Source: Microbacterium sp. CH12i
Lineage (GTDB): Bacteria; Actinomycetota; Actinomycetes; Actinomycetales; Microbacteriaceae
Assembly (NCBI RefSeq): GCF_000685355.1
Contig: NZ_JHET01000008.1
Coordinates: 62,001 to 126,000 of the forward strand
Length of the DNA stretch: 64,000 nucleotides
Reading direction: 5' to 3'
Both the position numbers and the translations under genes were made by a program. The first letter of the stretch is position 1; the number at the start of each line of letters is the position of its first letter. Shown here in pieces: positions 7,854-64,000 of the stretch. The notes under the pieces were generated by a model. The model did no database searches. It saw only the letters and a program-made list of their open reading frames with translations, and had not been told where the DNA came from.

Positions 7854-8798
7854 TCGTGTCTTCCCCGACCCCTATCCGGCAAGCGAAGAGATCCGTACGC
7901 TCGTCGCGCGTCTGCGAGCGGCTCCATTCAAAGCGGACACGAAGACCGTGCCCGAGTTGCGGGACAATTTCGAAGGCTTCGCCTCGAGCTTCCACGACAT
8001 TCCATCGTCGACTCGGTTTGAGCCCGTCGATGATGTGGAAGTCTCGATGGAGTGGGCGATAGCCGAAGGCGCCTCGACGGATGCCGTCATCCTCTACTTC
8101 CACGGCGGCGGTTACACCATCGGCTCGATCTCGTCCTATCGAGACCACTGCGCTCGGCTGTCGGCGATGACCGGCGCTCGCGTACTGTCGGTCGGCTATC
8201 GACTCGCCCCTGAGAACCGCTATCCCGCCGCACTCAACGATGCACGCACCTCATACGAGTGGCTGCTGGCTCAGGGCATCAGCCTGAGTGCATCCTGATC
8301 GCCGGCGATTCCGCCGGCGGCGGATTGTCTCTGGCGACGCTGGCTGCTCTCCGCGATGCAGGACGCCCTCTCCCCGCGGGCGCGGTGCTGCTCTCGCCGC
8401 TCACCGATATGGCGCACACCGGGGCATCCGTCGACGAGCGTGCGCATCTGGATCCGATCGTCACCCCGGAAGGCTCCCACGCCTACTCGACCCGCTATCT
8501 CGGTGAGGATGGCGACTTCGACCTGCCGTATGCATCTCCGGTGTATGCCGAGCTCGCAGGCCTCCCGCCCGTGCTCGTCGTCGTCGGCACGGAAGAGCTG
8601 CTGTTCGACGATTCCGTGCGCGTCGTGCGCAAGATCAAGGATGCCGGAGGTTCCGCAGACCTGGATGTCTGGCCGAACATGATCCACATCTTCCCGTTCT
8701 TCGCCTCGCAGATCCCCGAGTCGCAGCGAGCCATGGAGTACATCGCCCGGTTCGCCCGGCAACGACTCGGTCTTGAACAGACGGGAACATCACGATGA
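7846..8798 (+). pseudogene. Alpha/beta hydrolase (HSL-type esterase), single frameshift
   Basis: Joined frames give an esterase of about 317 residues in the hormone-sensitive-lipase family. The first frame holds the oxyanion motif YFHGGGYTIG. The second holds the nucleophile elbow GDSAGGG, the acid region GTEELLFDD and the His in NMIHIFPFF. The first frame ends at 8298 after WLLAQGIS. Restoring one C near 8289 (AGC-C-CTGAG) gives ISPECILIAGDSAGGG and a single protein. It begins inside the previous gene's tail (ATG 7846) and its stop overlaps the acyl-CoA dehydrogenase start. It may hydrolyse an ester or lactone feeding the pathway. Confidence 0.85.
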
Positions 8799-52675: not shown

Positions 52676-53906
52676 TCGAGACCCGCACGACGAAAGCTGG
52701 CCAGACCTACTACCTCGTCCGGGTGAAGTCCGGCCGCAAGCTCGTCGCATCCAAGTCGTTCGATATCAAGCGCGACGCTGAGGCCTGGGAGCGCAACCAG
52801 AAGCATCTGTTGGAGACCGGCCGACCCCTGCCGCCAAAGCGCTCGTTCACGCTGAAAGACTGGTGACCCGGTTCCTGGAGGCACGAGAGGGTGGCAATCC
52901 GCACACCGTCGATACTGACCGGAACAATCTCGCCGCACTCCCCACCGAGTTGCTCGCCCGGCCGCTAGCCTCGATCCACGCGGACGACATCCGCACCCAT
53001 CTGCTCACCGAGTTGCGTGGCGGGAAGAAGCCCTCGACGGTCGCGCGCGCGAAGACGACCCTCAGCGCCCTGTTCACCTATGCCGACGAGCAAGGGCTCC
53101 TGCACCAGCCCCATCCGGTGCGGACGATGAAGAAGATCCCCGAACTCAGTGCCGCCCAGCGTGGGATCAGCCCGAACGAGGTGCCCACTCCCCAGCATGT
53201 CGCCGCTGTGCTCACCACTCTCCGTGAACGGCGATCCGACATCGCAGATGTGTTCGAGTTCATGTCGCTGACAGGAGTGCGATGGGGCGAACTCCGCGCG
53301 ATCCGCGTCGGTTGGCTCTCCGAGGTGCCGCTGCCGCAGTTGAGTGTCGAGCGCTCACACTCCGACCACTACGAGGAGAAGAGCCCGAAGTCTTGGCGCG
53401 GCACCCGCCCGGTACCGCTCTCTCCGCGCACCCTGGCGATCTTCCGCCAATATGCCGCCGGGAAGAACCCGGACGACTACCTGTTCACCAACCAGCAGGG
53501 TGGGCAGCTCTCCGTCGGCGTCGTCCGCAAGTTCCCCCTCGGCTTCCGTCGCCACGCTCTCCGTCACTACGCGGCGTCCACCTGGCTGCGACTCGGCACT
53601 CCCGTGAATGAAGTCGCCGAATACCTCGGCGACGAAGCCCGCACCGTCCTCGCCGTCTATGCACACATCCTCGGCGAAGGACAACGCCGCGACTTCGTGC
53701 GCCGCCTTGCTACGCCGAGAGCCTCGACATCGGCGGGGGTCACCTGGGGGTCACTCAGAAGGCCCCGGGCCTCGGATTCTAGCCGAGACACAGAATTAGA
53801 TTCTACGAATAAACCGCTTCTGACCAGGTATTTCTTGGCGGAGACGGAGGGATTTGAACCCTCGGTACCCTTGCGGGTACTCCACCTTAGCAGGGTGGTG
53901 CACTAG
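52672..53906 (+). pseudogene. Tyrosine integrase, single frameshift
   Basis: Repaired length is about 411 residues, closely related to the integrase at 33866. The first frame reads MIETRTTKAGQTYYLVRVKSGRKLVASKS...FTLKDW and stops at 52866. The second begins TRFLEAREGGNPHTVDTDRN. One G lost in a GGG run near 52863 (TGG-G-TGACC) explains it. Catalytic residues are intact: Arg in LTGVRWGELRAI, HxLR in RRHALRHYAAS, Tyr in TVLAVYAHILG. The reading frame runs through the tRNA-Ser gene and ends there, marking the attachment junction. Confidence 0.9.
53735..53755 (+). repeat. Direct repeat pair near the attachment site
   Basis: GGGGGTCACCT followed directly by GGGGGTCACT, inside the integrase 3' end and about 80 bases from the tRNA. 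Matches the pair at 35608-35628; candidate integrase arm sites. Confidence 0.6.
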
Positions 53907-53925
53907 GCCACTATGCGACGTCTCC
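53836..53925 (-). tRNA. tRNA-Ser(GCU)
   Basis: A complete 90-nt type II tRNA on the reverse strand, including the CCA end. Acceptor GGAGACG pairs with CGTCTCC. The D-arm holds GTGGCCTAG. The anticodon stem CCACC-GGTGG encloses CTGCTAA (anticodon GCU). The variable arm is GTACCC-GCAA-GGGTAC and the T-arm is GAGGG-TTCAAAT-CCCTC. It is the integration target of the second element; the 18-base core at 53880-53897 is shared with the remnant at 35432-35449. Confidence 0.95.
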
Positions 53926-54081: not shown

Positions 54082-54786
54082 TCACTCTGCGTTGTCGGCG
54101 AAGGAATCAGCGAGCAGTCGCGCACTGGCCGTCGCCATGTGGATCGCCATGGCGGATGCCGCAGTATCCCCGTCGCCGGCACGGACTCCTGCCAGCACCG
54201 CTTCATGCTCGGCAACCGCCGTCGCCGCTTCACCCGGGTCGTGAACGGCGCGGTCGGCGTAGACCTGGAGGAGCGAACGGATGACGTGCACATGGTCGGT
54301 CAGCGTCTCATTGCCCGCCGCTTCGGCGAGCGCATGGTGGAAGTCGAGGTCTGCTTTGGCGAAGGCGGGGAGGTCGGCGATGGTCTCGCGCATCCGCCTT
54401 ACGCCCTCGTCTAGGCGGGCAATAACGTCGGCATCCGCTCGCGCGGCAGCGAGACGGGCGACGTAGATCTCCAGCCCCTCGCGCAGCTCCAGCAGTTGGG
54501 CCGTGTTGCGCTCGCCGATGAGCAGCCCCCAGCGCAGCGTCTGCGGCAGGAGCTCGCTCGCCAGGCCTCGCAGGTAGGTGCCGGAGCCCGGCCGCACATC
54601 GACGATGCCGAGGATCTCGAGAGCCGCGAGCGCCTCGCGCACGGCCGAGCGGCCGACGCCGAGCGTGGCGGAGAGGTGGCGCTCGGGGGGCAGGCGGGTG
54701 CCGGCGGCGACAGAACCGCTCGTGAAGAGATCGAGCAGGCGGCGTGCCACCTCGGACACCGGCGTCGCGGAAGGCAGCGCACTCAA
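54082..54786 (-). CDS. GntR/FadR-family regulator
   Basis: A 234-residue FadR-subfamily regulator. The winged helix reads LPPERHLSATLGVGRSAVREALAALEILGIVDVRPGSGTYL. The FCD ligand domain has DLDFHHALAEAAGNETL with the metal-binding Asp and His, and His residues later (AEHEAVLAG, AIHMATASA). It is divergent from the D-apionate genes, with a GTCAA...TTGAC dyad between. It probably represses them until a sugar acid binds the FCD pocket. Confidence 0.93.
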   Translation of the reverse strand: MSALPSATPVSEVARRLLDLFTSGSVAAGTRLPPERHLSATLGVGRSAVREALAALEILGIVDVRPGSGTYLRGLASELLPQTLRWGLLIGERNTAQLLELREGLEIYVARLAAARADADVIARLDEGVRRMRETIADLPAFAKADLDFHHALAEAAGNETLTDHVHVIRSLLQVYADRAVHDPGEAATAVAEHEAVLAGVRAGDGDTAASAMAIHMATASARLLADSFADNAE

Positions 54787-54874
54787 AGCGGCCGTGATGT
54801 CATCAACGGTTCACCGGGGAAAGCGGGCATGGGTTCAACTTACCCGGAACGTTGCAGAATTCGGGTTGCAATTG

Positions 54875-54889
54875 GTCAACCGGTTTGAC
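54875..54889. promoter_or_regulatory. FadR-type operator candidate
   Basis: GTCAACCGGTTTGAC, a 15-base dyad with six of seven pairs matched, lies between the divergent GntR gene and the apionate operon. GntR/FadR proteins typically bind such GT-N-AC dyads. Confidence 0.6.
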
Positions 54890-54939
54890 AAAATTGCATG
54901 AGTTCGTCCATATTCAGTCGCGATCAGAAGGTGTTCACG

Positions 54940-55734
54940 ATGATCGGCCTCGGCACCTACGCGTACTTCTGGCAGCACTCCGACCGAGTGCCGGAGCCGC
55001 TGAGCCTGATCGGTGCCTTTGAGGACACCCGCGCCCAGGGCGTCGACCTCTTCCAGATCTGCGACTACGCGCCGCTCGAGCAGATGAGCGACGGTGAACT
55101 GCGCGATGCGGCCGGAGCTGCCCGCGATCTCGGCCTCACGATCGAGCTGGGCACGAAGGGCATCGCCGGTGAGCACCTGAGCCGGTTTCTGACGCTCGCC
55201 GAGGTCTTTGATGCGCGCCTCGTGCGCAGCATGCTCTACGGCCCGCACTCCCGTCCGAGCCTGGCCGAGACAGAGGCCTGGCTTCGCCATGCTCTTCCTG
55301 CGTATGAGACCGCCGGTGTCACTCTCGCCCTCGAGACCTACGAGCAACTCGCCACGACGGATCTCGTCGGTCTGATCGACCGGATTGGCAGCGACCACCT
55401 CGGCATCTGCCTGGACCCGGCGAACGTCGTGGCTCGGCTGGAGAACCCCAAAGCATGCGTCGAGCAGACGGCCGCGCTCACCAAGAATGTGCACGTGAAG
55501 GACTTCGCCTTCGCCCGTCAGCCGGGCTGGGTCGGCTTCACCTACAGCGGCGCCTCGATGGGATCGGGGCTGCACGACTACGACCATCTCCTCGCGACGG
55601 TCCGTCCGCGCGAGCGCGGCATCAACGAGATCGTCGAGCACTGGCTGCCATGGCAGGACGATGCCGCGACCACCATCCGAACCGAGCGGGACTGGACCCG
55701 CACTACCCTGGAACACCTGAGGAGCACACTGTGA
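54940..55734 (+). CDS. oiaC: 3-oxo-isoapionate decarboxylase-like TIM-barrel protein
   Basis: A 264-residue xylose-isomerase-like TIM barrel. Metal-site segments are visible: LALETYEQL (Glu), LGICLDPANVVARL (Asp), NVHVKDFAF (His) and GINEIVEHWLP. Members called OiaC decarboxylate 3-oxo-isoapionate to L-erythrulose. The assignment rests on the fold plus the adjacent ApdH- and ApnL-like genes, and a generic sugar isomerase remains possible. I start at ATG 54940, with AAGGTG upstream; an in-frame ATG at 54898 overlaps the operator region. The stop overlaps the next GTG start. Confidence 0.75.
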   Translation: MIGLGTYAYFWQHSDRVPEPLSLIGAFEDTRAQGVDLFQICDYAPLEQMSDGELRDAAGAARDLGLTIELGTKGIAGEHLSRFLTLAEVFDARLVRSMLYGPHSRPSLAETEAWLRHALPAYETAGVTLALETYEQLATTDLVGLIDRIGSDHLGICLDPANVVARLENPKACVEQTAALTKNVHVKDFAFARQPGWVGFTYSGASMGSGLHDYDHLLATVRPRERGINEIVEHWLPWQDDAATTIRTERDWTRTTLEHLRSTL

Positions 55735-56585
55735 GCGAGAACTACAAGATCGCCGTCATCGGCGCTGGCGGCAAGATGGGCATGCGGGTGTCCAACAACC
55801 TAGCGAGGACCGGGCACACCGTCTGGTACGTGGAGAACTCCCCCGCCGGACAGCAGCGCACGCTCGACGCCGGCCGCGAGCTGACGGATGCGTCCGCAGC
55901 AGTCGCAGACGCCGACATCATCGTTCTCGCGGTTCCCGACTTGGCTCTCGGCCCGGTCACCGCTGACCTCGTCCCGCAGCTGCGCGCAGGCGCCATCGTG
56001 CTGACGCTCGACCCGGCCGCCGCCTATGCCGGGCTCCTCACCACCCGCGAAGACGTCATCCAGGCTGTCGCGCACCCGTGTCACCCGTCGATCTTCCTGC
56101 AGCGCGAGACGCCCGAGCAGTGGGCAGACACGTTCGGCGGCATCGCAGCCCCGCAGGATGCCATTGCAGCGATCGAGAGCGACGATGACGCCAAGAAGGC
56201 CATCGTCGAGGCCACCGTGCGCGCGATCTACGCTCCCGTCATCGACGTGCACTGGGTCACGATCAAGCAACTCGCCCAGCTCGAGCCGACCCTCGTCGAA
56301 ACCGTCGCTTGCATGATCGGCGCTCTTCTCAACGAGGCACTCCAGGAGACAGTGAACACGATGGGCGTTCCAGAGGCTGCGGCGCGCAGCATCCTGTACG
56401 GCCACACCCAGGTGGCCCTCGCGAATGGCCTACGCGGCGACAACCCGTTCAGCGATGCCTGCCTCATCGCGATGGACTATGGCCGCGAGAGCCTCATCAA
56501 GGACGATTGGAAGAAGATCTTCCGCGACGATGAGCTCGACAAGAACCTTGCCCGGATGCTGCACCTCGACAAGATCGAGCGCTGA
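55731..56585 (+). CDS. apdH: D-apionate oxidoisomerase-like dehydrogenase
   Basis: A 284-residue NAD-binding protein of the 6-phosphogluconate dehydrogenase type. The Rossmann motif is IAVIGAGGKMGMRVSNNLARTGH. The middle has AHPCHPSIFLQRETPEQWADTFGG. The C-terminal helical domain has VETVACMIGALLNEALQETVNTMGVPEAAARSILYGHTQVALANGL. This CHPS-containing form matches D-apionate oxidoisomerase (ApdH), which converts D-apionate to 3-oxo-isoapionate. GTG 55731 overlaps the previous stop, so it is coupled to the decarboxylase that would use its product. Confidence 0.72.
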   Translation: MSENYKIAVIGAGGKMGMRVSNNLARTGHTVWYVENSPAGQQRTLDAGRELTDASAAVADADIIVLAVPDLALGPVTADLVPQLRAGAIVLTLDPAAAYAGLLTTREDVIQAVAHPCHPSIFLQRETPEQWADTFGGIAAPQDAIAAIESDDDAKKAIVEATVRAIYAPVIDVHWVTIKQLAQLEPTLVETVACMIGALLNEALQETVNTMGVPEAAARSILYGHTQVALANGLRGDNPFSDACLIAMDYGRESLIKDDWKKIFRDDELDKNLARMLHLDKIER

Positions 56586-56586
56586 G

Positions 56587-57341
56587 ATGGCCCGCCTCCA
56601 GGGGAAGACGGCGCTCGTCACCGGCGCGGCGCCGGAATCGGGCGCGCGGTGGCCGAGCGATTCGCCCGTGAGGGCGCGCGGGTGATCATCGCCGACAGAG
56701 ACGCGGATGCTGCAGCATCCGTCGCCGCGGAGATCGGCGCTGCCGCCCGTGCCGCGGTCGTCGACATCTCTGACGAGGCCTCCGTCGAGGCGGCCTTCGC
56801 CGACCTCATCGCGGCCGGTTGGAGCCCCGACGTCGTCGTGGCGAACGCCGGCGTGCAGCTGTTCGGGCAGGATGCGAAGGCAGCGGACCTCGACCTCGAC
56901 GTGTGGCGTCGAACGATCGACATCAATCTGACCGGCACGTTCCTCACGGTCAAGCACACCGTCCGGGCGATGCTCGCCTCCGGCGGCGGTTCGATTATCC
57001 TCACCGGAAGCCCCACCGGCCTCAACGGCGAAGGGCAGGACTTCACCGCATATTCTGCCTCGAAGGCTGGCATTCATGGCCTCACGCGCACAGTCGCCGC
57101 GGCATATGCCCGCGACGGCATCCGTGTGAACACTGTCGTGCCCGCCTACACAGAGACCGGACTCGTCGCGACGATATCCGACGACCCCGACTCGCGTGCG
57201 GCGATCATCGGGCGCATCCCGATCGGTCGCGCCGGAAGCCCGGCCGACGTTGAAGGCGTCATGGTGTTCCTCGCCTCGGAAGACGCGGCGTTCGCGACCG
57301 GCGCGCTGTTCGCCGTCGATGGCGGGATGACGAACCTCTGA
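56587..57341 (+). pseudogene. SDR-family dehydrogenase, single frameshift
   Basis: Repaired, a 251-residue SDR. The first frame gives MARLQGKTALVTGA and ends early. The second resumes GIGRAVAERFAREGARVIIADRD. One G lost near 56629 (GCG-G-GCGCC) restores the cofactor loop TGAGAGIGRA. NAGVQ and the catalytic set LTGSPTGLNG...AYSASKAG are present. In this operon it may oxidise D-apiose to D-apionolactone or act on L-erythrulose; known D-apiose dehydrogenases belong to another family (Gfo/Idh/MocA). Confidence 0.82.
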
Positions 57342-57351
57342 CGATCGGACG

Positions 57352-59088
57352 ATGGCAATGACGTGGTGGCGGACGGATGCGGCGCCCTGGCGTGCACACG
57401 GCTGGAGCATCGAGGTGCGCGGCGACGAGCTCGCCGATATCCGCCGGGACGGGCGGCTGGTGCTGCGCGGCGTGCGCGCCGTCGTGCGCGACCACGGCTG
57501 GAACACTGTGCCGGTCGTCGTCGAGTCGTTCACGACCTCCCCTGACGGGCTCGAGTTCCGGCTGCGCCATGACGGACTCGGCGCACGTGTCGCAGCACTT
57601 CTGCGGGTCGACGTCCGCGGCGACGAGCTGATCGTCTCGTGGGATGCCGTCAACGAGGTGGGATTCGACACCTGCCGCGCCGGACTCGTCGTGCTGCATC
57701 CGGCGACGGATGCCGGATCGGCGGTGACGGTCACCCATTCGGACGGTTCCGCAGAGCAGACGATGCTCCCCGTTGCGATCAGCCCGCACCAGCCAACTAG
57801 AGACATCCGAGAACTGCGAATCGGCTCGACCGCCTCGATCAACCTTCGCTTCGATGGCGAGGTGTTCGAGATGGAGGACCAGCGAAACTGGTCCGACGCG
57901 TCGTTCAAGACGTACAGTCGACCGCTCTCGCTGCCGTACCCGTACCGCCTGGAAGCCGGCGAGCATCTGCGGCAATCGATCAGCGTTCGGGTGGACGCCG
58001 TGGCGACCACAGGCACCGCACCGGCCACAGGCACCGCGGCCGGTGCGGATCCCGTCATCCACCTGAACCCGGCCGGCGCGTTCCCGCAGATCGGAATCGA
58101 GGCCTGCACCGCCCCAGACCCGGTCCCCGCGGTCGCGACCGGTGCGTTCCGGGTGGTGGAGCTGAACCTCACCACTCCTAACTGGCACGCGGCACTGACC
58201 AGGGCGTCGGCCGACAAGCGTCCAATCGACGTCCGCCTCGTGACCGACGGCGATGCCGGGCTTCTCGAAGAAGCGGCGCGCTCACTCCGGGATCACGACG
58301 TGCAGCGAGTGACGCCGTTCGACGTCACGACGCACGTGAGCGACCGAGCCGTCGTCGAGGCGACGCGTGCAGCGCTCGCTTCTGCGGGCCTTTGTGTGCC
58401 GATCCTGGCCGGTGCACGCTCGCACTTCACCGAGCTCAACCGCGAGCAGCACCAGGTACCGCACGATGTGCACGGCATTGCCGTGAACACCACGCCGCTG
58501 TTTCATTCCCTGGACACCGAGCAGCTCGTCGAGGCCATCCCGATGCAGCGGCTCATCGCCGAGCAGACCGTGCGAATTGCTGACGGCTTGCCCGTGCACA
58601 TCGGTCCGCTCTCGCTGCGCCCGCGCTTCAACAACGTCGCGACCAGCCCGGAACCGGCGCCGACCCGCGACGAGCTCTCTGAGGGCTACGGCGCACAGTT
58701 CACCGGGGGGGCCGACGAACGGCAGCGCGCCGCGGAACTGGCCGCGTGGGTGGTCGCGAGCGCGGCGGCCCTGGCCGTGCCAGGGGTGGTGAGCCTCTCA
58801 TGGTTCGAGGCCTTCGGGCCGCGCGGGCTGCGCGACGCGAACGGCGCCTTCCCTGTCGCGGCGGCGATCGAGTCGCTCAGCGCTCTCGCCGGCGGCACTC
58901 TGCTGACTGGCAGCAGCCCGGACGGACTCGTCTGGGCGATCGGGTCGCGCAGTTCACACGAGGACATCGTGCTCGTCGCGAACCTCGATCGCGTAACGAG
59001 GAAGTTCGGCGTGCAGGTGACCGGCGGAGCGACGCAGGACGTCGTCGTCGAGCCCGGCAGCTGGACACGCATGAGCGCCGCCCGCTGA
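57352..59088 (+). CDS. apnL: D-apionate lactonase-like protein
   Basis: A 578-residue protein beginning with a beta-sandwich-like region and continuing into a (beta/alpha) region. The segment FEMEDQRNWSDASFKTYSRPLSLPYPYRLEAGE is the family block I recognise for D-apionate lactonase (ApnL), which opens D-apionolactone to D-apionate. Two carboxylates (Glu-Asp in EMEDQRNW) may be catalytic. No signal peptide, so it is cytoplasmic. It is last in the apionate operon and convergent with the FAH gene. Start at ATG 57352 or 57358. Confidence 0.75.
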   Translation: MAMTWWRTDAAPWRAHGWSIEVRGDELADIRRDGRLVLRGVRAVVRDHGWNTVPVVVESFTTSPDGLEFRLRHDGLGARVAALLRVDVRGDELIVSWDAVNEVGFDTCRAGLVVLHPATDAGSAVTVTHSDGSAEQTMLPVAISPHQPTRDIRELRIGSTASINLRFDGEVFEMEDQRNWSDASFKTYSRPLSLPYPYRLEAGEHLRQSISVRVDAVATTGTAPATGTAAGADPVIHLNPAGAFPQIGIEACTAPDPVPAVATGAFRVVELNLTTPNWHAALTRASADKRPIDVRLVTDGDAGLLEEAARSLRDHDVQRVTPFDVTTHVSDRAVVEATRAALASAGLCVPILAGARSHFTELNREQHQVPHDVHGIAVNTTPLFHSLDTEQLVEAIPMQRLIAEQTVRIADGLPVHIGPLSLRPRFNNVATSPEPAPTRDELSEGYGAQFTGGADERQRAAELAAWVVASAAALAVPGVVSLSWFEAFGPRGLRDANGAFPVAAAIESLSALAGGTLLTGSSPDGLVWAIGSRSSHEDIVLVANLDRVTRKFGVQVTGGATQDVVVEPGSWTRMSAAR

Positions 59089-59118: not shown

Positions 59119-60120
59119 TCACCACGATGCAGCTCCGCTATAACGCGCGACGCGACGCCTGGAACGCGGCCGGGCAGACGGGAGCGGCGGTGCCGGTACC
59201 TGCTCCCCGACCGTGTTGACGAGTTCACCGATGCCCTCGATGATCATCCGCACCTCGTCGCCCTCCCGCAGCGGGGGCGGGGTGAGAGCCTGGTTGCGAC
59301 CCCAGAGTTCACCGAGGCATCCGCCGTTGCCGACTGTTCCTGAGCCGAGCACGTCGCCGGGCACGACGCGCGAGTTGCGCGAGGCGTAGGCGACGAACTC
59401 CGGGAACGGCCAGCCGGCGTTCGACAGCAGGTCCTCGCCGATCAGCTCGCCATTGACGTACACCTCGGCGCGGAGCGCCAGGAAGCCATCGCCATCGAGA
59501 TACGGCGCCACCTCGTCGCTGGTCACGATCCAGGGGCCCAGCGTCGTGCCGAAGTCTTTGCCCTTCGCCGGCCCCAGACGCACCTTCATCTCGCGGGCCT
59601 GAAGGTCACGCGCCGACCAGTCGTTCATGATCGTGTAACCGAAGATGACGGATGCGGCGGATTGCGCGTCGAGGTTCGACTCCCCCACTTCCGCATCGGC
59701 GCCGATGACGATCGCGAGTTCGAGCTCGAAGTCGAGCTTCTCGGTGACGGGCGGACGCAGCACGTCGCCAGGACCCGAGATCGTGTGCGGGTTCGTGAAG
59801 TAGAACGTCGGTGCGTCGTACCACTCCGCCGCGACGTCGCTCTTGCCCTCGACTCCGGCGCTGACTCCTTCGACGTGCTCCTCGAAAGCGACGAAGTCGC
59901 GCACCGAGGCGGGCACGACCGGAGCGAGCAGGCGCACGTCAGCCAACGACTCGCCTTCGCCCTCGACACGCTCATACAGGGCGTGCGTCTCGGCGAGACC
60001 ACGCCGCAGCACGTCGGTGACAGTGAGGCCGTCGGGGAACGGCACCACGTTGCCTGCAATGATGAAACCCTCACCGACGCTCTGTCCGCTCTGTCCGCTC
60101 TCCCAGCGGGCGATCCTCAT
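59119..60120 (-). CDS. Fumarylacetoacetate hydrolase (FAH) family protein
   Basis: A 333-residue FAH-family enzyme. The metal-binding site is LDFELELAIVIGADAEVGE (the E-x-E pair) with a later Asp/Lys in GYTIMNDWSARDLQAREMKVRLGPAKGKDFGTTLGPW. The C-terminal GDVLGSGTVGNGGCLGELWG is the conserved closing block. It has an extended N-terminal domain like true fumarylacetoacetases. It would cleave a C-C bond in a beta-diketo acid. Its start overlaps the stop of the amidohydrolase. The last 20 residues are unusually Arg-rich and may reflect an altered end. Confidence 0.9.
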   Translation of the reverse strand: MRIARWESGQSGQSVGEGFIIAGNVVPFPDGLTVTDVLRRGLAETHALYERVEGEGESLADVRLLAPVVPASVRDFVAFEEHVEGVSAGVEGKSDVAAEWYDAPTFYFTNPHTISGPGDVLRPPVTEKLDFELELAIVIGADAEVGESNLDAQSAASVIFGYTIMNDWSARDLQAREMKVRLGPAKGKDFGTTLGPWIVTSDEVAPYLDGDGFLALRAEVYVNGELIGEDLLSNAGWPFPEFVAYASRNSRVVPGDVLGSGTVGNGGCLGELWGRNQALTPPPLREGDEVRMIIEGIGELVNTVGEQVPAPPLPSARPRSRRRVARYSGAASW

Positions 60121-61154
60121 GCCTGCACCTTCCCCGTCAGCAGATCGGCGGCGTTTCCGGCCAAGATGCGCTGGGCGACCTCGGCGGAAAGCCCTGCGCC
60201 CTGCACGAACGCCACCGGGTCGTCGAGCCCCATGTCGAACGGGAAGTCACTGCCGAGAACCACCCGGTCGGCGCCAGCGACCTCGATCAAGTGCCGGAGC
60301 GACGTGGGACTGTGCACGACCGTGTCGAACCAGATCTTCTTCAGATAGGTCGATGGTGCCTCGGCGCAGCGCTGCGCCTCGGGCCGCACGGCCCAGGCGT
60401 GGTCTGAGCGTCCGATCGCGAATGGCAGGTAGCCTCCACCGTGCGCCGCGATGATCTTCAGCTTCGGATGCCGGTCGAGCACACCCGCGAAGATGAAGTG
60501 CGAGAGCGCCACCGCGTTCTCCGTCGGCTGCCCGACCGTGTTGGCCAGGTAGAAGCGGTCAAGCCGCTCGTCCAGGCTGCAGCCGAACGGGTGCAGGAAG
60601 ATCACGCAACCGAGTTCGGCGACACGCGCCCAGAACGGCTCGAGCCGCTCATCCGAAAGCTCGACATCGCCGGCGAACGAGGATATCTCCACGCCGGCCA
60701 GTCCCCGCCCGAGCACGGCGTCATCGAGGCACTCCACAATCCGCTCCGGATGCTGCAGCGGGACGAGTCCGAGCCCGACGAGGCGGTCCGGAGCCTCGGC
60801 CACGTGCTCGGCCACGAGCCTGTTCGCCTCGTTCGCAGCCCAGACCGCGAGGCCCTCCGGAGCCCAGGGGTAGAAGTGGTTGGGCGACGCGCTCACCCAC
60901 TGCACCTCGACGCCCTGCTGGTCCATCGCGGCAAGCCGCTCAGTGACCGAGGTGAGTTTCGGGATGCGGGCGCCGACCATGGGGCCGGACACAGCCGCGC
61001 TCTCCGCACCGTTGCGCTTCAGCTCCAGTGCGGCAGCCTCGGCGACCAGCTCTGGCACTCGCGCCTCCACCGCCGCCTGGATCGACGGCAGGAGGAGATG
61101 GGCGTGCACATCCGTCACGCGGGCGTCAGCGGTCCGCTCGTTCTCAACGGTCAT
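60117..61154 (-). CDS. Amidohydrolase-family protein (ACMSD-like decarboxylase)
   Basis: A 345-residue metal-dependent amidohydrolase fold. The HxH metal motif is DVHAHLLLP. Further ligands are in CVIFLHPFG (His) and IIAAHGGGYLPF (His), with the catalytic Asp in VVLGSDFPFDMGL. This set matches the ACMSD group, which includes decarboxylases of hydroxybenzoates and aminocarboxymuconate semialdehyde. ATG 61154 is chosen because it overlaps the upstream stop. Between an FAD monooxygenase and FAH, decarboxylation of an aromatic acid or ring-cleavage product is likely. Confidence 0.9.
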   Translation of the reverse strand: MTVENERTADARVTDVHAHLLLPSIQAAVEARVPELVAEAAALELKRNGAESAAVSGPMVGARIPKLTSVTERLAAMDQQGVEVQWVSASPNHFYPWAPEGLAVWAANEANRLVAEHVAEAPDRLVGLGLVPLQHPERIVECLDDAVLGRGLAGVEISSFAGDVELSDERLEPFWARVAELGCVIFLHPFGCSLDERLDRFYLANTVGQPTENAVALSHFIFAGVLDRHPKLKIIAAHGGGYLPFAIGRSDHAWAVRPEAQRCAEAPSTYLKKIWFDTVVHSPTSLRHLIEVAGADRVVLGSDFPFDMGLDDPVAFVQGAGLSAEVAQRILAGNAADLLTGKVQA

Positions 61155-62287
61155 GCCGGTTCCGCCATCTTCTTCGCGATCCCAAAGATCAACCCGCCAG
61201 CGTCGGCGTCGCGATCGCCGTCGATCTGCCACTGCGCGAGTTGCGAGGACGCTTCAACAACAGCCGTCGCCCTGGGGAGTCTGCGGCGGTGGAACTCATC
61301 CCACAGCGCCTCGTCGACAGCATCTGCCGTGACCAGAAGCTCGGCGAGAACGACGGCATCCTCCAGGCCCTGCGCCGCGCCCTGCGCGATCGTGGGAGGG
61401 CAGGAATGCGCGGCGTCGCCGATGATCACGACGCGTCCGCGATTCCACGGTGCATCGACGATGTGCCGCGTGAACCAGGTGTAGTTCGCGTGCGCACCCA
61501 TCTCCAGGTCGGTGCGAATAGAGTCCCACGGGCCTGCATAGGCTCGAGACTCCTCGAGCATGATGCGTGTGGCCTCCTCGTCGGAGTGACCGAATCGGTC
61601 CTGCGCCTTCTCGACCAGGAACGCATACATCGAGTTCTCGCCGGTGGGTGTGTAGCCGGCAATGTACACCGGTCCGCCGTAGTACAGCTCGCTGCGCTCG
61701 ACCTCGGCCGGACGTGACACGAAAGTGCGCCAGATGCCCATGCCGTTCTGCTCGGGCTTGGTCTCGATCCCGATGAGTCCACGGACTGTCGAGTGCAGAC
61801 CGTCGGCGCCAATCAGCAGATCGTATGCTCCGGCGGATTCGCCATCCACGAACACCTCGACGGAGTCCGGTACGCTCGCGTCGATTGCCGTGACCTTCGC
61901 GCCGAAGACGATGTTCACGCCCGCCGCCTGTGCGTGGGAGAGCAGGATGCGCGCCAGTTCGGCACGCGGCATCCCCATAGCGGCCGGGTAGTCGGGGCCA
62001 CCGGTCTTGACGTCGGGAAGCGATGCGACGATCGGTGCATCGGGTCCGGGAGCTCGGAAGTTCAGTCCCTCGAACGCGTAGCCGGCATCCCGGATGTCGT
62101 CCCAGGCGCCAAGCGCGTCGAAGCAGCGCAGTGCGTTCCCCTGCAGGGAGATGCCCGAACCGAGGCCACTCAACTCGGGCTTGGCTTCGAAGACGTCAAC
62201 CTCGATGCCCGCCTTTGCCAGCTGAATCGCTGCGGCGAGTCCCGCGACGCCGCTGCCGGCGATCGCGACCTTGGATACTGCGGTCAT
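61151..62287 (-). CDS. FAD-dependent aromatic monooxygenase
   Basis: A 378-residue group A flavoprotein hydroxylase. It has the FAD GxGxxG in VAIAGSGVAGLAAAIQLAKAG ending in the Glu-like FEAKP, the DG motif DLLIGADGLHSTVR and the GD motif VVIIGDAAHSCPPTIAQGAAQGLEDA. ATG 62287 is preceded by AGAGAGG. The family hydroxylates aromatic acids with NAD(P)H and oxygen (salicylate or 6-hydroxynicotinate hydroxylase-like). The substrate is not determinable by eye. Confidence 0.92.
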   Translation of the reverse strand: MTAVSKVAIAGSGVAGLAAAIQLAKAGIEVDVFEAKPELSGLGSGISLQGNALRCFDALGAWDDIRDAGYAFEGLNFRAPGPDAPIVASLPDVKTGGPDYPAAMGMPRAELARILLSHAQAAGVNIVFGAKVTAIDASVPDSVEVFVDGESAGAYDLLIGADGLHSTVRGLIGIETKPEQNGMGIWRTFVSRPAEVERSELYYGGPVYIAGYTPTGENSMYAFLVEKAQDRFGHSDEEATRIMLEESRAYAGPWDSIRTDLEMGAHANYTWFTRHIVDAPWNRGRVVIIGDAAHSCPPTIAQGAAQGLEDAVVLAELLVTADAVDEALWDEFHRRRLPRATAVVEASSQLAQWQIDGDRDADAGGLIFGIAKKMAEPA

Positions 62288-62325
62288 GTCAGAACCTCTC
62301 TGTTCTGGTGTAGTGCATCGGAAAG

Positions 62326-63323
62326 TTAGAGAAGGGCGATGGGATTGATCGGAGAGCCGACCGCACCCGTGATGGGCAGGGGCGGGGCAGAGAGCAAGAA
62401 CTCCCAGCGGCCGAGCTCTGCGCAGGCCGCTGCGAGCTCGTCGAGGTTCCACATCTCGCCGATCGTGAGCCCCATGTTCGGGATCACGACCTGGTGCAGC
62501 GGCTGGAAGGCCTCCGCGTCGAACTCGTTCGGGCGCACCTCGAAGCCCCAGGTGTCGGTCGCGATAGCGGCGATCTCAGTGCGATGCAGCCAGCCGGCGG
62601 TGGTGACTGAGAGTCCGGGTGCAGGTCCCCCTGCATAGTCGCCCCAGCCGTCGCGGCGAGTCCGCGTGTACTGACCTGTGCGGACGAGCACGATGTCGCC
62701 GCGGCCGATGCGTGCGGAGTCGCCCTGCGCTGCGGCGGTCGCTTCGAGATCGGCGACGGTGATCGCGTGGCCTTCGTCGAGCTCGCCCGTCTCAGGGCGC
62801 AGATGCCGGCCGACGTCGAGCAGCACGCCGCGTGAGACGACGACGGATGCTGCATGCTCAATGCCTGTGACGAGGTCGCCATCACTTGTGACGACGTCGC
62901 CGGCACGACGACCGTTCCAGGCGTTGCCGTGATCGAAGATGTGGCCGAGACCGTCCCACTGAGTCGAGCACTGCAGCGGCATGGCGATCACGTCATCCGC
63001 GCCGCCGATCCCGTGCGGGAAGCCCTGATTGCCGCGTTCGGCATCGGTGCCGGTGTCGGTCATCGTGTGCACCGGGTTGGTGCGTCGGCGCCAGCCCTTT
63101 TGCGGACCGTCGGTGTCGAAGGGCTGCGAGAGCGAGATTGCCCGCCGTCGCGGACCAGGCTCGCGGCCTGCACGCGCTTGGCCGGGTCGATGAAGTTCAG
63201 CGTGCCGAGAGCGTCGTCCTCGCCCCAGCGGCCCCAGTTGCGAAACGCCTCGGCACGAAGGGTGATCTCTGCCTCTGGATCCTGGCGGTCAAGGTCAGCG
63301 GGGTTCTCGGACGGAGCGGTCAT
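62326..63323 (-). pseudogene. Cyclase-family hydrolase, single frameshift
   Basis: Repaired length is about 332 residues. The first frame from ATG 63323 reads RNWGRWGEDDALGTLNFIDPAKRVQAASLVRDGG. The second continues LSQPFDTDGPQKGWRRRTNPVHTMTDTG...MPLQCSTQWDGLGHIFDHG to SPINPIALL. One base is missing near 63134. The metal-binding TQWDGLGHIF and PLHQVVIPNMGLTIGEMWNLDEL match the cyclase/kynurenine-formamidase superfamily, which hydrolyses amides, enol esters or lactones. The start overlaps the upstream FAH stop. Confidence 0.85.
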
Positions 63324-64000
63324 GACTCGTCCTCCGCGACGCAGCGGATGACCTGGGTGCCGAGGCCTGCGATCGTCCCGGTCATGACGTCGCCGTCGCG
63401 CAGGAACCTCTTCCAGTGCTGACCATTACCCGCGGGGCTGCCAGTCAGCAGCAGATCGCCGGGCAGCAAGGGCATGTTCTGCGAGGCCGCCGAGATCAGT
63501 GCGGGGATGTCAAAGAGCAGGTCGGTGGTGGAGGCGTCCTGCATCACCTCTCCATTCAATTCGAGTCGCACCGCCGCATTGTCAGCATCCACGAACTCGG
63601 CCGGCACCAAGAACGGGCCAGTGGGCAGGAAGCCGGGGGCATTCTTGCCGCGGTACCAGTCGGTGCCGATGTCTTTCATGTCCTCGCGGAATACGAGGTC
63701 CCGCGTGGTGACGTCGTTGACCATGGTGTAACCGGCCACGTGCTCGAGGGCATCCTCGCGAGTCACCCGGAACGCTTCCCGACCGATCACTACGGCCAGC
63801 TCCAGCTCCCAGTCATGCACCTCACTGTACGACGGCAGCACGAGCGGTACGTCGTCGCCGACGACGCACGCGGGCAGACCGATGAAGAAGTAGGGCTCAC
63901 CGTTCACGGCCCGATCGTCCATCAGCTTGGCCGCGAACTCGCGAGCCTCTTCGATTGTGCGACCGCTGTTCTTCGACACTCCGGCGGCGACCAGCTCGAT
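63320..64000 (-). CDS. FAH-family hydrolase/isomerase, partial (5' end outside window)
   Basis: The visible 226 residues are the C-terminal three quarters of an FAH-family enzyme. The E-x-E metal pair is in DWELELAVVIGREAF. GYTMVNDVTTRDLVFREDMKDIGTDWYRGKN and GDLLLTGSPAGNGQHW follow. The frame is open to the window edge, so the start lies beyond 64000; the GTG at 63979 is an internal Val. A different branch from the FAH at 59119, closer to the 2-oxohept-3-ene-dioate hydratase/acylpyruvase type. Confidence 0.9.
   Translation of the reverse strand: MELVAAGVSKNSGRTIEEAREFAAKLMDDRAVNGEPYFFIGLPACVVGDDVPLVLPSYSEVHDWELELAVVIGREAFRVTREDALEHVAGYTMVNDVTTRDLVFREDMKDIGTDWYRGKNAPGFLPTGPFLVPAEFVDADNAAVRLELNGEVMQDASTTDLLFDIPALISAASQNMPLLPGDLLLTGSPAGNGQHWKRFLRDGDVMTGTIAGLGTQVIRCVAEDES

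Follow-up and report, generated by a model that had tools for sequence, protein, structure and literature searches.

Which enzyme opens the oxidative breakdown of D-apiose in bacteria whose pathway genes lack the usual dehydrogenase? This question is raised by an operon (positions 54082-59088) in a window of 64,000 nucleotides from Microbacterium sp. CH12i, representing positions 62001-126000 of contig C8 in a 3.35-Mb draft genome of 21 contigs. The oxidative D-apiose pathway was reportedly described by Carter et al. in 2018. According to the open reading frames and to Pfam and NCBIfam searches, the operon has a minus-strand gene for a GntR/FCD regulator, followed on the plus strand by four genes for an OiaC-like protein, an ApnO-like oxidoreductase, a short-chain dehydrogenase/reductase (SDR) and an ApnL-like protein (Table 1). 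We propose, with a probability of roughly 0.72, that the genes form an actinobacterial type of D-apiose catabolic operon in which the SDR family would act as D-apiose 1-dehydrogenase. It would apparently be a variant of the known oxidative pathway with an SDR at the first step.

The open reading frames and domains matched those given in a preliminary description of this DNA made from the sequence alone. Candidate dehydrogenase, lactonase, oxidoisomerase and decarboxylase genes lay together at 54940-59088, as expected for an oxidative D-apiose pathway proceeding via OiaC, and no D-apiose dehydrogenase of the Gfo/Idh/MocA type was found among the operon proteins with Pfam and NCBIfam. Both the GntR winged helix and the FCD domain of the regulator were above the Pfam cut-offs, and relatives of this protein were found near the operon at many loci. 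Alignment with its relatives makes 54940 the most likely start of the OiaC-like gene (Pfam was run on 54943-55734); the gene adjoins that of ApnO in many relatives, and no NCBIfam model for OiaC matched in a scan of the protein. We use ApnO for what we take to be the symbol of the PGDH_C D-apionate oxidoisomerase; the window protein was 41% identical to a PGDH_C protein of a Shinella cluster that also carries OiaX and ApnL. The ApnL-like protein is only a distant relative of the D-apionate lactonases described by the equivalog model NF049900, since it scored 210.5 bits against a cut-off of 750, which was passed by the positive controls from Shinella (818) and Roseibium (919). It was 30% identical to the Shinella protein, and its nearest named relatives were mostly from Microbacterium and other Microbacteriaceae. 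Structure prediction gave a good model (mean pLDDT 90.7) with a beta-sandwich plus barrel. Most among the 50 Foldseek matches listed were glycosidases (GH97, GH36, GH30 and others) with TM-scores by query length of 0.22-0.41; these model-based matches, weak and mostly to glycosidases though the family is named a lactonase, would not decide the function.

The SDR gene opens at ATG 56587. It was one base short at about 56626/56627 in alignment with both L091 and L109, the nearest relatives among the loci compared here (loci and genomes carry our L and G numbers; L109 is from Microbacterium sp. AK031, with its intact SDR at 8032-8787), which agrees with the earlier view that this gene needs repair. 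The frame break falls in the part coding for the glycine-rich cofactor motif. Across an alignment of 24 SDR sequences (A3), Ser142, Tyr156 and Lys160 were invariant and G13, G17, G19 and Asp37 nearly invariant, so that the family combines an SDR domain with the Ser-Tyr-Lys triad and the cofactor motif of classical SDRs. NAD+ would be the cofactor because of Asp37. Assignment of a substrate from family scores was dropped, as all 25 NCBIfam models listed for the SDR remained below their cut-offs. A structure prediction for the copy from L109 was poor (mean pLDDT 65.6) and was not used.

A link of the SDR to ApnL was evident across genomes. Among 198 genomes of the same genus, the SDR group was found in 56, ApnL in 55 and ApnO in 56, with all three in 53; SDR matches were counted at 65% identity or more, the next lower match being at 45%, and G397 and G464, which each have a second SDR copy, were counted without it. 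The SDR and ApnL genes were at most 300 bp apart in 45 of the 53 genomes and at most 3 kb apart in 50 (Fisher p = 7e-42 for co-occurrence of SDR and ApnL, kinship ignored). An ApnL relative was also found in 52 of 299 genomes of the family, and up to 20 kb was fetched around 40 of these (L033-L072). With the SDR counted at a minimum of 58% identity and 90% coverage, 35 of the 40 family loci contained it, 31 within 300 bp of ApnL. The same count for the best 80 named ApnL loci (L109-L188), whose organisms overlap with those of the family loci, gave 56 loci with the SDR, 53 of them within this distance. Gene calling in the fetched loci relied on an in-house script, which did badly on some of them (L094 and L130). 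The SDR family further occurred in clusters with OiaK and OiaX homologues (L070-L072, L106 and L107). In L072 these homologues scored 416 and 443 bits, both below the cut-off of 700, and the 20 kb examined showed no OiaC.

The clear dyad at 54875-54889 noted in the preliminary description proved to be part of a conserved predicted operator. This was found through shared 10-mers, whereas a regular-expression search for TGGT..ACCA-type sites had mostly failed. The core GGT[CT]AACCGG lay upstream of 57 of 70 regulator genes, and sites with this exact core were used to build a matrix. The 16-base core, with up to two mismatches, occurred once in the 3.35-Mb genome of strain CH12i (reversed control: 0), and mononucleotide-shuffled windows gave a mean of 0.6 matches scoring above 12. 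The operator was also found before separate SDR-ApnL pairs, defined as same-strand genes within 300 bp of each other with no ApnO up to 150 bp before them, although some, such as L064, have ApnO about 300 bp before. A site scoring above 13 within 350 bp upstream was present at 32 of these 49 pairs (21/28 in family and 11/21 in named loci), compared with about one chance match expected from 151 merged sites in 2.31 Mb. The FCD/GntR regulator would act at TTGGTCAACCGGTT-type operators, of which one precedes the operon and others lie ahead of separate SDR-ApnL pairs.

The SDR was further associated with glycosidases of the Apiosidase-like family (PF13204). This domain was found in 41 of the 198 genus genomes, namely in 30 of 56 with the SDR versus 11 of 142 without, and in 19 of these 30 a PF13204 gene lay within 15 kb of the SDR or ApnL. 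Where the SDR stands apart from ApnL or ApnL is absent (L097, L099, L100 and L101), a PF13204-type glycosidase was encoded directly before the SDR. The four glycosidases form one family with 72-87% identity; that of L100 matched DUF5060, PF13204 (48.7 bits) and DUF5605, and its gene comes after GH78 and GH43 genes. The contexts in which the SDR occurs would have D-apiose and its lactone in common, and not L-erythrulose. The SDR was not found in locus L126 of Jiangella asiatica, which carries an Apiosidase-like gene (L126:13741-15246) at a distance of two genes from ApnL.

In the alphaproteobacterial loci inspected, the position taken by the SDR is held by a different family. Of the 236 plasmid records that matched ApnL, four were inspected (Rhizobium, two Shinella and Roseibium), and the gene adjoining ApnL was annotated as Gfo/Idh/MocA in all four. 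The Shinella Gfo protein had no match at E<=1e-15 in the genome of strain CH12i and only matches of 25-35% identity in the 198 genus genomes (best 99 bits, 32% identity). A single-seed Gfo model found two proteins and a motif filter gave 19 mixed candidates; a model from 15 proteins (15 of 30 passed a motif filter) found four in 142 fetched loci, 106 of them with ApnL called. As the latter model failed to pick up Gfo genes or parts of them in L129 and L183, we added tblastn searches with the four alphaproteobacterial Gfo proteins against 120 ApnL loci (E<=1e-5). Six loci matched (L129, L141, L181, L183, L185 and L187), those in L129 and L141 at least 2 kb from ApnL and those in L183 (a Chloroflexia metagenome-assembled genome, MAG), L181 and L185 beside it, and no actinobacterial locus had a Gfo match adjoining ApnL in this search. 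Linkage and regulation over many genomes make the replacement of Gfo/Idh/MocA by the SDR well supported, and the suggestion in the preliminary description that the SDR could be a D-apiose dehydrogenase in this slot was upheld by gene families, linkage and operator alike.

Other candidate dehydrogenases were seen near ApnL. L185 and L181 are related loci, each from a MAG (labels Gemmatimonadetes and Latescibacterota), in which just short, different pieces of a Gfo protein remain between ApnL and OiaX. Both carry an aldo/keto reductase gene after OiaX (L185:13340-14275 and L181:3566-4489; 90% identical), which in L185 sits between OiaX and OiaK. This protein is a possible third kind of D-apiose dehydrogenase. 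One of the four alphaproteobacterial loci, L224, likewise has an aldo/keto reductase gene after its Gfo/Idh/MocA gene. Divergent from ApnL in L033 (7873-9114) and L095 (8227-9474) is a flavoprotein gene with D-arabinono-1,4-lactone oxidase domains, which may represent another way of oxidising the sugar; the genome of L095 (G399) is without the SDR group. Tentatively, and at slightly less than even odds, unrelated families fill the first oxidative step in different lineages beside the same lactonase family: Alphaproteobacteria would use Gfo/Idh/MocA, Actinobacteria this SDR, and L185 and L181 perhaps the aldo/keto reductase.

Relatives of the window operon are often longer. In L064, L067 and L068 the gene order was regulator (divergent), major facilitator superfamily (MFS) transporter, Dak kinase, RpiB homologue, TIM homologue, OiaC, ApnO, SDR and ApnL, with representative domain scores of 158.9 bits for MFS, 365.8 for Dak1, 151 for Dak2, 157.1 for LacAB_rpiB and 172.6 for TIM. 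As the preliminary description had stated, no transporter or kinase is present in the window operon, and no Dak-type kinase or TIM- or RpiB-type isomerase adjoins it. Uptake in the relatives would be by an MFS or a DUF2291-type ABC transporter. DUF2291/ABC sets in L033 and L048 were preceded by operator-type sites, and the binding protein of L048 shares 60% identity with its counterpart in the Shinella cluster; this set is a candidate apiose transporter. Following uptake, the SDR would oxidise D-apiose to D-apionolactone, which the ApnL-like protein would open to D-apionate. ApnO would convert D-apionate to 3-oxo-isoapionate, and the OiaC-like protein would decarboxylate this to L-erythrulose. 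The kinase and isomerases of the relatives fit in kind the LerK, LerI and DerI steps, which according to PMC10733421 carry L-erythrulose to D-erythrose 4-phosphate, and would take it to the same product here. Gene families, linkage and operator are consistent with the route from D-apionolactone via D-apionate to L-erythrulose under an FCD regulator that had been sketched before. The step then named "ApdH" is that of D-apionate oxidoisomerase (EC 1.1.1.421 in PMC11747546).

In strain CH12i itself the system looks decayed, given the SDR frame break, the absence of the MFS gene from its place and stops in an apiosidase-like gene. In L091 and L109 an MFS gene lies between operator and OiaC; the window is without it there, and a search of the strain's own genome for this gene, run with no positive control, found none. 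Rhamnose-type dehydrogenase, GH78 and apiosidase-like genes, all damaged, were found 16-25 kb past ApnL on contig C8 (L189:11033-19953), and together they are, judged by sequence, a decayed plant-glycan module. Two in-frame stops interrupt the apiosidase-like gene, which lies about 23 kb beyond ApnL; the GH78 gene preceding it has one frame break and the rhamnose-type dehydrogenase gene two. We lean against the possible alternative that the window copy is functional and its SDR frame break a sequencing error. The genome is a draft and the missing base falls in a G/C-rich run, the remaining operon genes are open, and two genes 16-23 kb onward on the same contig are also frame-broken, as expected from indel errors. 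Such errors could account for frame breaks, but not for in-frame stops, nor is the MFS gene in its place. With the SDR frame broken and this gene missing, the route is probably not working in the strain. A separate Dak-RpiB-TIM set is encoded on its contig C10 (L092) with ABC transporter, DeoR regulator and zinc dehydrogenase genes.

Several observations weigh against this explanation of the operon. The family scores of the SDR point to no substrate, and the route as a whole rests on family resemblance, because ApnL is below its equivalog cut-off and OiaC and ApnO were matched as such by no NCBIfam model. The RpiB homologue was above the NCBIfam cut-off as ribose-5-phosphate isomerase and below it as DerI. 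Fisher values overstate the case, since related genomes are not independent; three genus genomes have the SDR without ApnL and ApnO (G307, G380 and G455) and two ApnL without the SDR (G347 and G399). The SDR was not found in 5 of the 40 family loci and 24 of the 80 named loci, 12 of the latter being MAG loci at 29-33% ApnL identity (L176-L178 and L180-L188). No operator was seen at 17 of the 49 SDR-ApnL pairs, two of which had just 117 bp of DNA before them. Near the operon, PF13204 scored modestly (about 49-74 bits), and the genome-wide search for this domain misses members and undercounts, because G307 and G369, the source genomes of L097 and L099, were unmatched although their glycosidases are 75 and 83% identical to a matching protein. 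Lastly, an SDR gene lies 4 kb before ApnL in L224, just 26-28% identical to the window family.

Other Gfo proteins do exist in the genomes, four of them in that of strain CH12i, and could support a reading in which the SDR acts on another sugar or derivative from the same plant glycan while a Gfo/Idh/MocA protein or other enzyme elsewhere oxidises D-apiose. The SDR also accompanies GH78 and GH43 (L100) or GH2 and GH3 (L096) glycosidases, and the flavoprotein divergent from ApnL in L033 and L095 would fit this as well. We consider it unlikely in view of the tight pairing of SDR and ApnL and their common operator; nor did a search of the 198 genus genomes turn up any protein closely related to the alphaproteobacterial Gfo protein. 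Still less probable is the L-erythrulose reductase (or tetritol dehydrogenase) that the preliminary description had offered as a second role, which we judged unlikely on linkage: the SDR is indeed in an operon expected to yield L-erythrulose, the substrate of such an enzyme as the product of OiaC, and the GolD/DthD model was among its matches, below cut-off, but the kinase and two isomerases of longer operons already suit the processing of L-erythrulose, and the SDR forms 49 pairs with ApnL (28 in family and 21 in named loci) that have no ApnO directly before them, directly follows Apiosidase-like glycosidases and is present in the OiaK/OiaX locus L072.

With the oxidative D-apiose pathway the operon shares the ApnL-type lactonase and PGDH_C oxidoisomerase and a GntR-type regulator (annotated as NanR in 3 of the 4 plasmid loci); its relatives also have an ABC transporter of the same DUF2291 type. 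It differs from it in that the first step is apparently catalyzed by an SDR and not by Gfo/Idh/MocA, that many actinobacterial loci have OiaC and Dak/TIM/RpiB in place of OiaK/OiaX, and that its ApnL is far under the equivalog cut-off. One cluster of a D-apiose-growing strain encodes D-apionolactonase, D-apiose dehydrogenase, D-apionate oxidoisomerase, kinase and decarboxylase (PMC11747546). Like the LerK/LerI/DerI tetritol module defined in PMC10733421, relatives have a Dak-type kinase and TIM and RpiB homologues in one operon; here L-erythrulose would derive from 3-oxo-isoapionate and not from erythritol or threitol, and the same three kinds of genes lie on contig C10 and not in the window operon. 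An Escherichia D-apiose cluster (PMC13001218) resembles ours in missing the usual first apiose enzyme, with oxidoreductases proposed as substitutes, whereas the enzyme replaced there is the isomerase ApsI of the transketolase route, a different pathway. In a literature search no SDR-type D-apiose dehydrogenase was among the matches listed, which is weak evidence, and nothing combined apiose and Microbacterium.

Table 1. Features of the operon, in window positions
Feature	Positions	Strand	Evidence
GntR-family regulator with FCD domain, FadR subfamily, probable repressor	54082..54786	-	Pfam GntR 62.5 bits, FCD 94.4 bits
Predicted operator, 29-bp site; core GGTCAACCGG at 54874-54883, imperfect dyad to 54889	54866..54894	+	matrix score 44.4
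OiaC-like protein, xylose-isomerase-like TIM barrel, candidate 3-oxo-isoapionate decarboxylase	54940..55734	+	Pfam AP_endonuc_2 62.3 bits
ApnO-like Rossmann and PGDH_C oxidoreductase, candidate D-apionate oxidoisomerase	55731..56585	+	Pfam PGDH_C 192.7 bits
SDR gene, candidate D-apiose 1-dehydrogenase family	56587..57341, in-frame part from 56649	+	Pfam adh_short_C2 186.8 bits for the in-frame part
ApnL-like protein, candidate D-apionolactone lactonase	57352..59088	+	NF049900 210.5 bits, cut-off 750

On one side of the operon, at 52863-53925, the end of a phage-integrase family gene (31.4 bits) overlaps a tRNA-Ser (gct) gene of the opposite strand, which suggests the remnant of an integrated element. 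Past the other end of the operon, the minus strand at 59119-63979 carries what looks like a cluster for the breakdown of aromatic compounds, with two FAA hydrolases, an amidohydrolase, an FAD monooxygenase and a cyclase-family protein.

The new finding is that the system is widespread in Microbacteriaceae, often with the kinase and isomerase genes in addition, and that it appears damaged in strain CH12i; an operator motif for its regulon, the candidate apiose transporter included, has been obtained. If the proposed role of the SDR is true, it would give a function to an SDR group present in 56 of 198 sampled genomes of the genus and in other Actinobacteria, and would provide a testable case of enzyme-family replacement at the entry of a pathway. 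It would also suggest how such bacteria would use apiose from plant glycans and glycosides.

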